64,000 nt of DNA, taken from Bacteroidota bacterium (lineage in GTDB: Bacteria > Bacteroidota > Bacteroidia > AKYH767-A > 2013-40CM-41-45). Each line of letters begins with the position of its first letter. The first letter of the stretch is position 1. Below are positions 50,214-56,409 of this stretch, piece after piece. Made by a program: the position numbers and the translations under genes. The DNA lies in the NCBI GenBank assembly GCA_003389385.1, contig QQVM01000002.1:1-64000 (forward strand), written 5' to 3'. The notes below the pieces were generated by a model. It was not told the DNA's origin. It did not search any database and saw nothing but the letters and a program-made list of their open reading frames with translations.

Positions 50214-50924
50214 TCAGTCAATTTTTCTGGTGGCTTCTCTCTTGCTCAATGGTTTTAACTCATTGGTTTCCACGAATCGCCACACGAAGGATGGCTCTGT
50301 TTCCGAGTAAGCCCTCAATGCCCAACCGATGGCTTTCTGCAAAAAGAATTCATTTGAATTAATGTGCGGAAAAATTGCATGTAATAGGAGATCAGTATCA
50401 GTCTGTTTTCTGTACTTGATTTGAAAAATGATTGCAGTTCTGTTGAGCCACATGTTCTTATGCGATGACCATTTTTTTACGCAGGTGTGCATTTTTTCAG
50501 GATGCTTTAAAAAATAATTGCCAATGAGATTCGAGGCGATAAAATCTACAGTATCCCACCATGATTTTTCAATAACCAGAGATTCAAAATAATCCAGTGA
50601 ACTTTCATTCCATGACTTTTTGTTTTTAAAAAGAAGTTCCATGGCAATGTACTGGTATTCTCTTTCCTTTTTTTTCCAGAGGATTGCCGAAGCTTTTCTA
50701 GCATCTTCCCAATCCAGTTTTTTCATTTCTTCCATCCAGGGCTTTACAATCAGTTCCCTTTCCGGTTTTTTAATCCCGAGAAAGGGAAATTTTTTTTTCA
50801 TGTAAGCAGACATCGGTCCTGCGATCTCTTCGTTAGCCGCAGCAAGCATTGCTTTTTCGAGCGCGCTGATTTTATTTTTTATAAAGTCTTTTGAAGACAT
50901 AGCATTCAAGGGGAAGTTTTCCAA
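50214..50924 (-). CDS. AlkD-like DNA alkylation repair protein
   Basis: A 236-residue helical protein of the AlkD DNA glycosylase family, which removes alkylated bases such as N3- and N7-alkylpurines. 'VIEKSWWDTVDFIASNLIGNYFLKHPE' contains the Trp-Trp-Asp with the catalytic-type Asp, and 'NEFFLQKAIGWALRAYSETEP' is the second conserved repeat. The N-terminal 'MSSKDFIKNKISALEKAML' at codon 9 may be the real start. It stands 30 bases upstream of the monooxygenase gene on the same strand. Confidence 0.9.
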   Translation of the reverse strand: MENFPLNAMSSKDFIKNKISALEKAMLAAANEEIAGPMSAYMKKKFPFLGIKKPERELIVKPWMEEMKKLDWEDARKASAILWKKKEREYQYIAMELLFKNKKSWNESSLDYFESLVIEKSWWDTVDFIASNLIGNYFLKHPEKMHTCVKKWSSHKNMWLNRTAIIFQIKYRKQTDTDLLLHAIFPHINSNEFFLQKAIGWALRAYSETEPSFVWRFVETNELKPLSKREATRKID

Positions 50925-50954: not shown

Positions 50955-52508
50955 TTACTCGAGAATAAATGATTTGCTTCGGGAAATACCTCCTGATTCG
51001 GCGCGAATGATGTAATGACCTTTAGAAAGATTGTGAAGTGGGATGGTTTCCGTGTGCAAGCCTGACACAGACTTGTTCATGCCGGAATTCCAAATGATTT
51101 TTCCGAGCATATCAATTACGCTTATTCGAACATCAGCATGTTCAGGCAGCAGGTATTGAATTCTGATTTCAGCGCGTGCGGGATTAGGGTAAGGATCATA
51201 AAGCTGTATGGTATTGATGATTCCCTGCACATTCATTTCCTGTACGCCCGTGATGCTGCTGCTGTCCTGCACAATGAATTCATCACCATTCTGGTATAGC
51301 GTAGATGCGAAGTACACCAGCATCATTTCGTCTGTGGTGGCTTCTCCGAGAGAAACATTCTGAGGAGGATTATTCGGGTTGTGCGGATTCGCGCTGGTGT
51401 TATCATAGGTGGCGCTGGAATGCAAGGTAGTACCCGCTGGTAATTTCAGCAGTCGCGGAAATGCATAAGTGCCCTGCCAGTGAAAATCCCAATGCGGAAT
51501 ATGAATGAATGGAATGGTATCATTCGCCGGGGTGACACCATAGCTGGTAATGCTTTTGCCGATGAGGTGCATGTGTGGCCCAACGGCAAGCACCGTGTAA
51601 GTTGTCGGAAGAGTGAAGCGAGCAGTGAAAGTTCTGATTGTATTTGCCGGAATAAACAGCGGGCCATTGTCAAGCTGGTAATGATTGAGAGGAGGATTGA
51701 TGCTGATCTCCCTCAGTGGCGTGCTGCTCAGTTTAAATCGCACCTGTGTGCTGTCGGTCTGGTTAAAAGTTCCTCCCGGATAATGCACCTGAATAATAAT
51801 GTTTGTATTGGCTCCAAGCCTGATACCCATTCCGGGAGGCATTCTGTTCACGCTTTGTCCGGGCACCCAGATTCCAATCAGTTTAGAATTTAATGAACCC
51901 GTGCCGCCGAAGTTAGTATAACCCGGACCAGGATCTGCCGCGTCCAGTTGAGCAGGCCTGTTGGTGCTGTCTTCATAGACTAGTACGTGATGTACAATTT
52001 CCCTGTTGCCGGGGATGACTTCGATCTCGGTGATGTATTGTGCCGAAGCAAGTCCGGAAGGAATTACAAAACACCTGTACAGATCGTTGGCAGTGTTTAC
52101 TGAATATGTCTGCATCTGACTGAGGAGATCAGGATTTGTGATTTCAGCAATGCCGGTATAGACCGGTGGAGGAGGAGCGAGGGAAGTATCACCGATCGGA
52201 CCTCCGTCCTGCACCCATTGTATGATGGAATTTTTTTCCTGCTGACTCAAAACCCTCTCGTGCGCGAAGCGGGTATAGTTTGGATCCGGAGGCCAGGGCG
52301 GCATTTCCCCTGAGGACACTGCATCTTCAATATCAGCCATTTCATTGTAGGCATCTGCATAAGTAATCAGTGAGAAAGGTGCTATTCCCGAAGGATTATG
52401 ACAGCCTGTGCATTTTGAATATAAAATCGGAGCTACATCCACAGACCAGGTAACGCTCTGTGATTTAGAAAGCAATGGAATAAACAGAAGGAAGAGCAGT
52501 TTTTTCAT
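50955..52508 (-). CDS. Secreted cytochrome c / PHM-like copper monooxygenase, T9SS type A
   Basis: A 517-residue secreted protein. After the signal ('FIPLLSKSQ') the N-terminal domain has a haem motif Cys33-x2-Cys36-His37 in 'YSKCTGCHNPS', with Met69 ('GEMPPWPP') a possible second ligand. Residues about 140-400 have the ligand set of peptidylglycine-hydroxylating monooxygenase: His173-His174 ('EIVHHVLVY') and His242 ('QVHYPGG') for one copper, His312/His314 ('GPHMHLIGKS') and Met395/396 for the other. A type A sorting domain ('DPYPNPARAEIRIQYLL') ends the chain. It may pass electrons from haem to copper for substrate hydroxylation; substrate unknown. Confidence 0.92.
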   Translation of the reverse strand: MKKLLFLLFIPLLSKSQSVTWSVDVAPILYSKCTGCHNPSGIAPFSLITYADAYNEMADIEDAVSSGEMPPWPPDPNYTRFAHERVLSQQEKNSIIQWVQDGGPIGDTSLAPPPPVYTGIAEITNPDLLSQMQTYSVNTANDLYRCFVIPSGLASAQYITEIEVIPGNREIVHHVLVYEDSTNRPAQLDAADPGPGYTNFGGTGSLNSKLIGIWVPGQSVNRMPPGMGIRLGANTNIIIQVHYPGGTFNQTDSTQVRFKLSSTPLREISINPPLNHYQLDNGPLFIPANTIRTFTARFTLPTTYTVLAVGPHMHLIGKSITSYGVTPANDTIPFIHIPHWDFHWQGTYAFPRLLKLPAGTTLHSSATYDNTSANPHNPNNPPQNVSLGEATTDEMMLVYFASTLYQNGDEFIVQDSSSITGVQEMNVQGIINTIQLYDPYPNPARAEIRIQYLLPEHADVRISVIDMLGKIIWNSGMNKSVSGLHTETIPLHNLSKGHYIIRAESGGISRSKSFILE

Positions 52509-52572: not shown

Positions 52573-53466
52573 TCAGAAGAGCTCAGCGATCATGCAGCGT
52601 GCGCCGCCACCACCAAGCGTTTCAAAGGTGCTCAGTTCTGTATGGATTATCCTGCAATGTCTTTCCAGGATAATAATCTGCTCGCTGCTAAAGGCAGAAT
52701 GAGCTCGTGAAGACATGATAAGCAGTTTTTCTTTTTTATCATTTTCCAGCGCAAGACAATTTCCGCAAAAGTTTTTCATTTGCTCCATGCTGATTTCGAT
52801 GATTGTTCTGCCGGATTCAGTGATGGACTTTTTTACAAGACGTTTTTCGTCTGAATCGCGAATGCTATCGGTGCAAAGTATCGCGAAGCCAGGCCCAAGG
52901 CACATCATCACATTGGTATGATATATACTTCTTCTCTGCTCATCGTCGGAGCTGAAAAGTATCAGGGAATAATTCAGTTTCTTGCCCCATTCGTAGAGCA
53001 GGTTTGTGCTTGTTCGTTCGGAAAGCGCCGCCCAGGCGATTCGGGCATCATGATCCATCACAATACTTCCGGTGCCTTCCAGGTAAAGTCCACGGTCTTC
53101 ATTCCTTGAGAAATCATGCACTACACTGTATCTGCTTTTCAGGAAATCAATGATGTGTGAACGCCTTTCCAGTCTGCGGCTCGGCGCCTTCATGGGGTAG
53201 ATAACCAGTCTGCCATCAGGATGCGTGCTGAACCAGTTGTTCGGAAATACAGCATCAGGAGTATCAAGATTATCTTCGATTTTAAAGAGCGAAACACGCA
53301 TGCCATTTTCCTCCAGCAGATACTTCAGCCTGTCGAATTCTTCCCTGGCATACACAGAAATATCCGATCCCGCTTTGGCGCTCATGAAATAATTATCCTG
53401 TCCGGTTTCAGGATTAAATCTGAAACCGGCAGGATCCACCATCAGTACTTCCTTCGCGTAAGACAT
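52573..53466 (-). CDS. ctlX: CtlX-like citrulline/arginine deiminase-fold hydrolase
   Basis: A 297-residue guanidine-modifying-superfamily protein. 'DAVFPNNWFSTHPDGRLVIYPM' is the conserved substrate loop, 'GTGSIVMDHDARIAW' and 'YHTNVMMCLG' supply the acidic residue and His of the catalytic triad, and 'LGGGGARCMIAELF' the nucleophilic Cys (about residue 291). The layout agrees with CtlX-type citrulline utilisation hydrolases and DDAH-like relatives; which amidine it hydrolyses is inferred. No arginine deiminase operon genes adjoin it. Confidence 0.87.
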   Translation of the reverse strand: MSYAKEVLMVDPAGFRFNPETGQDNYFMSAKAGSDISVYAREEFDRLKYLLEENGMRVSLFKIEDNLDTPDAVFPNNWFSTHPDGRLVIYPMKAPSRRLERRSHIIDFLKSRYSVVHDFSRNEDRGLYLEGTGSIVMDHDARIAWAALSERTSTNLLYEWGKKLNYSLILFSSDDEQRRSIYHTNVMMCLGPGFAILCTDSIRDSDEKRLVKKSITESGRTIIEISMEQMKNFCGNCLALENDKKEKLLIMSSRAHSAFSSEQIIILERHCRIIHTELSTFETLGGGGARCMIAELF

Positions 53467-54354: not shown

Positions 54355-54478
54355 ATCTTATTGTATCCTCACCTTTCTTCGCTTTTTTACATTTCGGTTG
54401 AATCAGGCTGATAGATTGGCCCAACTTCCATTTTCCCTGAATCAAAGGGAATTTGCCAAGGCACTTGCTTGTGCATGG

Positions 54479-54508
54479 TTGCTTATCTGTTTCGAAATGC
54501 TATTTTTG
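54479..54508 (+). promoter_or_regulatory. Two-box promoter of the sugar dehydrogenase gene
   Basis: TTG (54479-54481), 19-base spacer, TATTTTTG (54501-54508): an exact fit to the Bacteroidota consensus. The chosen ATG follows 23 bases after the -7 box, which confirms that the upstream in-frame starts lie in the promoter. Confidence 0.75.
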
Positions 54509-54531
54509 TTTCTCTTAAAATCCGAAACTAT

Positions 54532-56409
54532 ATGCAGCGTTTCCTACTCGTTTTATCACTGTGCTTTCTGCACAGTTTGAATTCTTACTCTCAGATCAGT
54601 CTTGTGCCTTTTGCCAGCGGATTCAATGATCCGGTGGATATCAAGCATTGCGGAGATGAACGTTTGTTTGTGGTGGAACAAAGAGGCTACATCTATATTG
54701 TTGACACAAACGGAGTCAGGCTCAACACTCCCTTCCTTAATATACAACCCAGTGTGAGATTTGGAAGCGAACAAGGATTGCTCGGCTTAGCCTTTCCTTC
54801 CGATTACAAAGAGAGCGGATATTTCTATGTGAATTACACAGCCCAGACCAGAGGGAATACAGTCATCTCCCGCTTCAGGGTGAGTCCTCTCGATTCCAAT
54901 GTCGCGGACCCACTTTCTGAAGAACGTTTGATGGAGATCTGGCAGCCTTACTCCAACCACAATGGCGGACATCTTGCTTTCGGTCCTGACGGTTACCTGT
55001 ATATCGGTACAGGCGACGGCGGGTCTGCGAATGATCCGGGTGACAGGTCACAGAACAGGGACTCATTGCTGGGAAAAATGCTGAGGATAAAAGTGGACCC
55101 ATTAAAACCAGGCTATGAAATTCCGAACGGCAATCCATTCGTTTGTCCTTCGCAGAGCGGAAGACATGAGATATGGGCTGTAGGACTCAGGAATCCCTGG
55201 CGTTTCAGCTTTGACAGATGCACCGGCGACATGTGGACAGGTGACGTAGGTCAGGGCTCACTGGAGGAAATAGATTTTCAGCCTGCATCCGACCGAGGCG
55301 GACTGAATTACGGCTGGCGTTGTTTTGAAGGAACCAATGTATTCAATACATCAGGAATTTGTCCACCTACACCGACACATACTCCGCCAGTGGCAGAGTA
55401 CAATCACAGCGGCGGACGTTGCTCTGTAACCGGAGGCTATGTTTACAGAGGTGCGCGCTACAACAACATGTTCGGGACTTATTTTTATACTGACTATTGT
55501 GTTCCGACCATGTACACCGTTACACGAAACAGTTCCGGCGGATTTATAAACAATACACTGGGGAATATCGGAGGATCTTCCTTTTCGTCTTTCGGTGAAG
55601 ACAAATGGGGCGAACTGTATGCGGCTTCCTTATCCGGGACTATATTCAGATTTTCATCGACTGATTGCACACCGGTTGCTTCTATAAACTGTGGAGCAGA
55701 TTCTGTTTCTGATTGCAATACAGGAATCACGAAACTTTCTGTTCCTGCCGGACGAGGGTTTACATATCAGTGGAGTCATGACGGAATTTTGCTTCCTGAC
55801 ACCATGAACGAAATTCTTGCCGCGCTTCCCGGGATTTACTCGGTGAATGTAACGGGTATCAGCGGATGCAGCAATACCGATTCAATTCTTGTTTACACTG
55901 CTTCTCCATTCTCTGTAACATTCAGCAACCTGGATACATTATACTGCCTCACAGACAATCCGGTTGCTCTGATGCCTTCAGTTCCGGGTGGAGTTTTTGA
56001 AGGAAATGGAATGAGTTGCATCACCTTTGATCCTGTAGCTGCGGGAGAAGGCACTCATGTCATCACATACGAATACCGCAACAGTGATGGCTGCGTTTAT
56101 ATGGCAAGTCAGTCGGTTCGAGTGGATGCATGCCTTGGCCTGCAAAAGAATTTATCATCAGAGCATCTTTCCATATACCCGAATCCGGGCAATGGCGTTT
56201 TCACACTTGAAATCAGATCGGAAAGCGCTTCTTCAATGAATCTTGAAATCACGGATATCAGAGGCCGCTCTGTGCAATCAATGAAGATGGATGTCTCCAA
56301 AGGACTGAATAAATTTCCGCTCGTCCTGAATAGCACAAGTGCCGGAATGTACTTTGCTGTGATCAGCGCAGATAGTGGGAAAGCCACACTTCGCTTTGTG
56401 AAGAATTAA
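54532..56409 (+). CDS. Secreted PQQ-type glucose/sorbosone-like dehydrogenase, T9SS type A
   Basis: A 625-residue secreted protein. The start is the ATG (MQRFLLVLSLCFLHSL, signal to 'SYSQ') 23 bases after a two-box promoter; upstream in-frame starts would lie before or within the promoter. Residues about 25-370 form a six-blade beta-propeller of the soluble aldose sugar dehydrogenase family: 'FVVEQRGYIYIV', 'GSEQGLLGLAFPSDY', 'HNGGHLAFGPDGYLYIGTGDGG', 'EIWAVGLRNPWRFSFD', 'GDVGQGSLEEIDF'. Then come Ig-like modules and a type A sorting domain ('HLSIYPNPGNGVFTLEI'). The enzyme may oxidise sugars with PQQ; cofactor use is inferred. Confidence 0.9.
   Translation: MQRFLLVLSLCFLHSLNSYSQISLVPFASGFNDPVDIKHCGDERLFVVEQRGYIYIVDTNGVRLNTPFLNIQPSVRFGSEQGLLGLAFPSDYKESGYFYVNYTAQTRGNTVISRFRVSPLDSNVADPLSEERLMEIWQPYSNHNGGHLAFGPDGYLYIGTGDGGSANDPGDRSQNRDSLLGKMLRIKVDPLKPGYEIPNGNPFVCPSQSGRHEIWAVGLRNPWRFSFDRCTGDMWTGDVGQGSLEEIDFQPASDRGGLNYGWRCFEGTNVFNTSGICPPTPTHTPPVAEYNHSGGRCSVTGGYVYRGARYNNMFGTYFYTDYCVPTMYTVTRNSSGGFINNTLGNIGGSSFSSFGEDKWGELYAASLSGTIFRFSSTDCTPVASINCGADSVSDCNTGITKLSVPAGRGFTYQWSHDGILLPDTMNEILAALPGIYSVNVTGISGCSNTDSILVYTASPFSVTFSNLDTLYCLTDNPVALMPSVPGGVFEGNGMSCITFDPVAAGEGTHVITYEYRNSDGCVYMASQSVRVDACLGLQKNLSSEHLSIYPNPGNGVFTLEIRSESASSMNLEITDIRGRSVQSMKMDVSKGLNKFPLVLNSTSAGMYFAVISADSGKATLRFVKN

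Follow-up and report, generated by a model that had tools for sequence, protein, structure and literature searches.

It has long been asked how electrons reach the two widely separated copper sites of PHM and DBH and pass from one to the other, and a gene in the window (the whole 64,000-nucleotide stretch of Bacteroidota DNA analysed here) raises a related one: does a haem domain joined to a copper core of this type act as its electron donor? Related cores in animals make peptide hormones and noradrenaline. The first-pass annotation had described the product as a haem domain fused to a PHM-like copper monooxygenase and exported by T9SS; it placed the open reading frame exactly and left its strand, minus, unstated.

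Domain layout and cofactor residues

The layout of the protein is given in Table 1. When the whole sequence was searched against Pfam, Por_Secre_tail (residues 440–515, 42.8 bits) and Cu2_monooxygen (132–243, 33.3 bits) scored above cut-off, and Cu2_monoox_C (304–400, 22.3 of 23) and Haem_bd (53–100, 23.2 of 27) fell slightly under it; scanned by itself, the haem domain cleared the cut-off (29.1 of 27). The type A sorting domain reported at the C-terminus exceeded the cut-off in two libraries (PF18962, 42.8 bits; TIGR04183 of NCBIfam, 39.2 bits). Across 65 family members scanned with Pfam, Cu2_monoox_C was matched in 62, Cu2_monooxygen in 51 and the sorting tail in 59. A 137-aa ORF antisense to the gene (window 51480–51893, plus strand) appears to be a chance ORF.

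Table 1. Features of the haem–copper gene, in window coordinates.
Feature	Position	Strand	Basis
Complete gene (517 aa), encoding in order a signal-like N-terminus, a cytochrome c domain, a PHM-type copper core and a T9SS type A sorting domain	50955..52508	-	ORF, Pfam, alignment, AlphaFold2
Signal-like N-terminus, residues 1-17 (MKKLLFLLFIPLLSKSQ)	52458..52508	-	Read from sequence
Haem c domain, residues 18-106; CxxCH 33-37, M69 in MPP, C-terminal helix 89-100	52191..52457	-	Pfam, alignment, model
Proline-rich linker, conserved, with invariant P115 and nearly invariant P112; residues 107-118	52155..52190	-	Alignments
Copper core, N-terminal (CuH) half, residues ~125-259; ligands H173, H174, H242	51732..52136	-	Pfam, alignment, profile, fold
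Copper core, C-terminal (CuM) half, residues ~260-409; ligands H312, H314, M395	51282..51731	-	Pfam, alignment, profile, fold
T9SS type A sorting domain, residues 440-516	50961..51191	-	Pfam, NCBIfam, fold comparison

A scan of bacterial genomes yielded 80 homologous loci, nearly all from Bacteroidota; the few with other titles cluster with Bacteroidota sequences in the tree. In an alignment of 81 sequences, which takes in the window gene and its paralogue, ten cofactor residues are conserved in every row (C33, C36, H37, M69, H173, H174, H242, H312, H314 and M395), and the same ten are invariant in a smaller alignment of 65 rows, so the motifs do not arise by chance. They comprise the complete CxxCH motif (CTGCH at 33–37) and the complete copper ligand set (HH, H, HxH, M), both of which the annotation had recognized, and M69 in the MPP at 69–71, which is probably the distal haem ligand and extends the residue list of the annotation. 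Further positions without variation are concentrated in the CuM half (W340, F342, W344, Q345, Y348, N370, T371, N374, T391 and E394). Of the three cysteines in the protein, two lie within CxxCH; the third, C146 (codon 52071–52073), is 90% conserved and aligns with a disulfide cysteine of PHM, and is partnerless in the family.

The haem domain resembles class I cytochromes c (Cytochrome_CBB3, Haem_bd, cytochrome c6, CcoP) in having CxxCH after an N-terminal helix, a candidate distal Met in a loop and a C-terminal helix; CxxCH and Met are both invariant, their spacing is constant, and the helix pattern of the model fits the cytochrome c fold. It differs in its fixed CxxCH-36-MPP form and WVxxGxP end, and the sequence match is weak, both to the families Haem_bd and Cytochrome_CBB3 and to cytochromes of known structure (best E 0.002).

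For the copper core, a family profile searched against the PDB matched human DBH (2.3e-10) and rat PHM (8.9e-8). In the printed profile alignments the CuH and HxH ligands are in register with DBH and PHM, and the Met of the DEM motif with PHM; thus the three-His CuH site aligns to ligands of both enzymes and the two-His-one-Met CuM site to those of PHM. An AlphaFold2 model of the whole protein, run on the 65-row alignment, has a mean pLDDT of 90.2 and superposes on PHM with Z 23.4 (rmsd 3.0 over 257 residues of 3mic, 18% identity) and on DBH with Z 22.2; Foldseek matched it to the PHM/DBH-type two-domain core with E 1.7e-13. A two-domain construct without the tail gave pLDDT 92.5 and pTM 0.88, and superposed on 5wja with Z 23.6 (rmsd 2.4 over 253 residues). 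Domain search and structure prediction thus both recovered a PHM/DBH-type core for the proposed copper sites (Z ~23), and by its ligands and modelled two-domain fold the window protein belongs to the copper type II (PHM/DBH) superfamily. By analogy with that superfamily, we infer that it would bind copper and carry out O2-dependent hydroxylation. A pTM of 0.88 for a protein with a separate 90-residue domain suggests that the model positions the haem and copper domains against one another with some reliability, and it favours a fixed mutual arrangement.

Distribution and export of the haem–copper unit

Surveys with PF01082 alone were too insensitive (3/198 genomes). The family was found in 21 of 296 sampled Bacteroidota genomes, and the survey bore out the proposed fusion: the haem domain is present in all 24 complete genes, with CxxCH and MPP always 36 residues apart. 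Complete here means that the whole 5′ part is available; the 24 take in the window gene and its paralogue, and two contig-end pieces (L106 and L117) were set aside. A one-off fusion or an assembly artefact was rejected, as the same domain order recurs in the 81 aligned sequences and the 24 complete survey genes. A tail of T9SS length occurs in ~14 of the 24, and the rest end no more than ~26 residues past the CuM Met. With the haem domain constant and the tail variable, it is the cytochrome–PHM unit that is held constant and the export route that varies; judged by this distribution, the joining of a cytochrome to the PHM core is old.

These patterns also bear on whether the two domains work together. 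If the haem were mainly structural, or the domains independent and joined only by common export, the exchangeable tail would fit, with its varying export route. However, no complete haem-less member occurs among the 24 survey genes or the 81 aligned sequences, the spacing is fixed and the linker conserved, and we consider this explanation very unlikely. The constant presence of the haem domain and its 36-residue spacing to the Met point instead to joint selection on haem and copper core, and a functional link between the two is supported by the haem domain never being absent from complete Bacteroidota members. Outside the phylum, an actinobacterial plasmid of Nonomuraea encodes a protein, unannotated in its record, with the full copper ligand set and no haem domain (L118:2066–3427); it was the only relative in a survey of plasmids, and none was found in viral contigs. 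Sequences from two loci titled Thermoanaerobaculia (L046) and Sphingomonadales (L071) are nested within Bacteroidota branches of the tree, and the title of the former looks wrong, since a survey starting from its genome drew the Bacteroidota sample once more.

The genome itself has export and maturation genes that such a protein would use. SprA_N, a component of the T9SS translocon, was matched with E 1.5e-161, and more than 20 other loci match a T9SS-type tail. T9SS export, as the annotation had proposed, is therefore predicted for the window protein, and a surface location would follow; as a defining trait of the family the tail does not hold, many relatives being tail-less. CcmF-, CcmC- and CcmB-like genes lie in one cluster; this Ccm-type set is present instead of the System II maturation gene ResB, which was not found in the genome. 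Elsewhere in the window (54469–56409, plus strand), a protein of the glucose/sorbosone-dehydrogenase type is encoded that bears a T9SS sorting tail of its own; it is another putative redox enzyme for export near the gene.

Gene neighbours and the redoxin side branch

The window gene is flanked upstream by an amidinotransferase-like gene (52573–53466, minus strand) and downstream by a DNA-alkylation-repair-like gene (50214–50924, minus strand), both read from sequence. Among relatives, only the nearest (L009) preserves this order, no family of neighbours accompanies the window gene in at least four loci, and its branch has no conserved neighbour that names a substrate or an electron source; an operon-based guess at the substrate was discarded for the first two of these reasons. 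In one Saprospiraceae branch (L024, L027, L029, L036, L046 and L049) a fatty-acid-hydroxylase-family gene precedes on the same strand, and several of these loci also have genes for a histidine kinase and a LytTR response regulator downstream, again on that strand; this neighbourhood looks like lineage synteny.

The new element is a redoxin (thioredoxin-fold) gene beside members of a side branch, including the paralogue in this genome. The paralogue (contig C5, L147:8611–10618) is 36% identical to the window protein; its signal is lipoprotein-like and it lacks a T9SS tail. It is preceded, at a distance of 10 bases and in the same orientation, by a gene whose 202-aa product is a secreted redoxin of the AhpC/TSA type that has CPAC and, C-terminally, a GCII motif. 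In L108, L109 and L111 the gene immediately before the PHM gene encodes a related redoxin; in L104, L106 and L113 such a gene lies downstream, in L105 the two stand head-to-head, and in L112 (1456–3261) a single protein joins an N-terminal redoxin to haem c and PHM core. All redoxin-associated genes group in a single branch of the tree (21 rows, support 99) that does not include the window gene. The varied arrangements, together with the L112 fusion, point to a functional link of redoxin, haem c and PHM core in this branch, where the redoxin may remove peroxide, deliver copper or reduce thiols. On the other strand, ~3 kb from the paralogue, a multihaem cytochrome with TPR repeats is encoded (L147:3601–5646).

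Electron flow and comparison with known systems

In PHM and DBH, electron transfer involves CuH, O2 binding and hydroxylation take place at CuM, and the electrons come from two ascorbates (PMC4846438). We favour the reading, with a probability of about 0.58, that the window protein is a copper hydroxylase of the PHM/DBH superfamily that is exported and carries a one-electron relay of its own. The protein would be exported across the inner membrane and receive its haem covalently from a Ccm-type system, be loaded with copper at its three-His CuH and its two-His-one-Met CuM site, and be carried across the outer membrane by T9SS via its C-terminal domain. Outside, the His/Met haem would take single electrons from a reductant and deliver them to the copper core, with CuH as the most likely point of entry, and CuM would bind O2 and hydroxylate a C-H bond of a substrate other than peptidylglycine. 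Parts for both export steps, haem attachment and copper binding are present as sequence features; cofactor loading, the events outside the cell and the direction of electron flow are modelled on the known PHM/DBH mechanism. The N-terminal His/Met haem, always present, is a natural candidate for electron entry, and a donor role, as the annotation had suggested, is plausible, the more so given the obligate haem–copper pairing. The reading as a whole is favoured by this pairing, the invariance of all haem and copper ligands, the PHM/DBH homology in profile and fold, the short conserved linker, the pTM of 0.88 and the presence of maturation and export genes. Against a relay, one haem gives one electron at a time and the reaction needs two, the actinobacterial protein has a copper core without haem and so the core is not haem-dependent everywhere, the haem domain matches known cytochromes weakly in sequence, and neighbours in the branch name no substrate or electron source.

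Two other roles for the haem were weighed. Electrons could flow in reverse, the copper core oxidising a substrate (or a metal or thiol) and the haem passing electrons to a cell-surface acceptor; the Cytochrome_CBB3-like haem type also occurs in terminal electron-transfer proteins, and a redoxin accompanies the side branch. Yet the ligands of an O2-activating hydroxylase, CuM His2Met and CuH His3, are complete and invariant here and known superfamily members consume electrons (PMC4846438), which makes this improbable. Alternatively, the haem could be a regulatory or sensing module (for redox state, O2 or NO), gating the copper core without supplying its electrons. Gas-sensing haems usually keep an open site, whereas M69 is invariant, as in His/Met electron-transfer cytochromes. 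We judge a sensing haem unlikely, even though the DOMON domain of DBH, which sits in the same N-terminal place with a cytochrome fold and no haem, has a suggested allosteric role (PMC4846438).

Returning to the relay, we put forward tentatively, and with some doubt, that these proteins form a self-sufficient, ascorbate-free PHM/DBH branch in which electrons reach the two-copper site from a covalently bound haem c at the surface and a thioredoxin-fold partner acts in the side branch. If this is true, extracellular or outer-membrane electrons can drive hydroxylation, and a prokaryotic route of copper hydroxylation without ascorbate would be established. A natural PHM/DBH version with a built-in, spectroscopically visible relay would allow electron transfer to be watched directly, and it would add a conserved extracellular oxygenase to the list for Bacteroidota physiology.

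No characterised or bacterial haem-PHM enzyme was found in the literature searched. In other bacterial phyla the databases show two unnamed architectures, cytochrome plus Cu2_monoox and redoxin plus cytochrome plus Cu2_monoox, with the domain order of the window protein and of L112; we know of no function for either. With T9SS type A cargo the window protein shares a C-terminal sorting domain above cut-off; it differs in that the cargo is a haem–copper enzyme, and to our knowledge no characterised cargo of this type is one.

Rat PHM (PDB 1phm, 1sdw) has the same two-domain copper core, with CuH His3 and CuM His2Met in register, and the motifs HxH, DEM and QVHY are common to both; Y318 of PHM corresponds to Y399. 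The position of R240, which in PHM holds the peptide carboxylate, is occupied by G310 in the window protein and by Ala in most of the family, N316 is replaced by L397, and the PHM disulfides are absent. Since R240 and the disulfides are missing, peptidylglycine is not an expected substrate, and peptidylglycine amidation was rejected as the function, R240 not being kept and nothing pointing to a lyase partner. "PHM-like" thus holds for fold and ligands and fails for specificity. PHM also differs in having no haem, in its eukaryotic secretory pathway and in its ascorbate donor.

Human DBH (PDB 4zel) shares the core and likewise lacks R240 (Gln or a neighbour in that column). It too has an extra N-terminal domain, a DOMON domain whose fold equals that of the cellobiose dehydrogenase haem domain with the haem ligands absent (PMC4846438). 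Unlike the window protein, DBH carries no haem in this domain, ends in a dimerisation domain and has no T9SS tail; the window protein has no Pfam match to a DOMON domain of the DBH/MOXD type, its N-terminal part being the haem c domain. The parallel is suggestive: two lineages have put a cytochrome or cytochrome-fold domain at the N-terminus of a PHM/DBH core.
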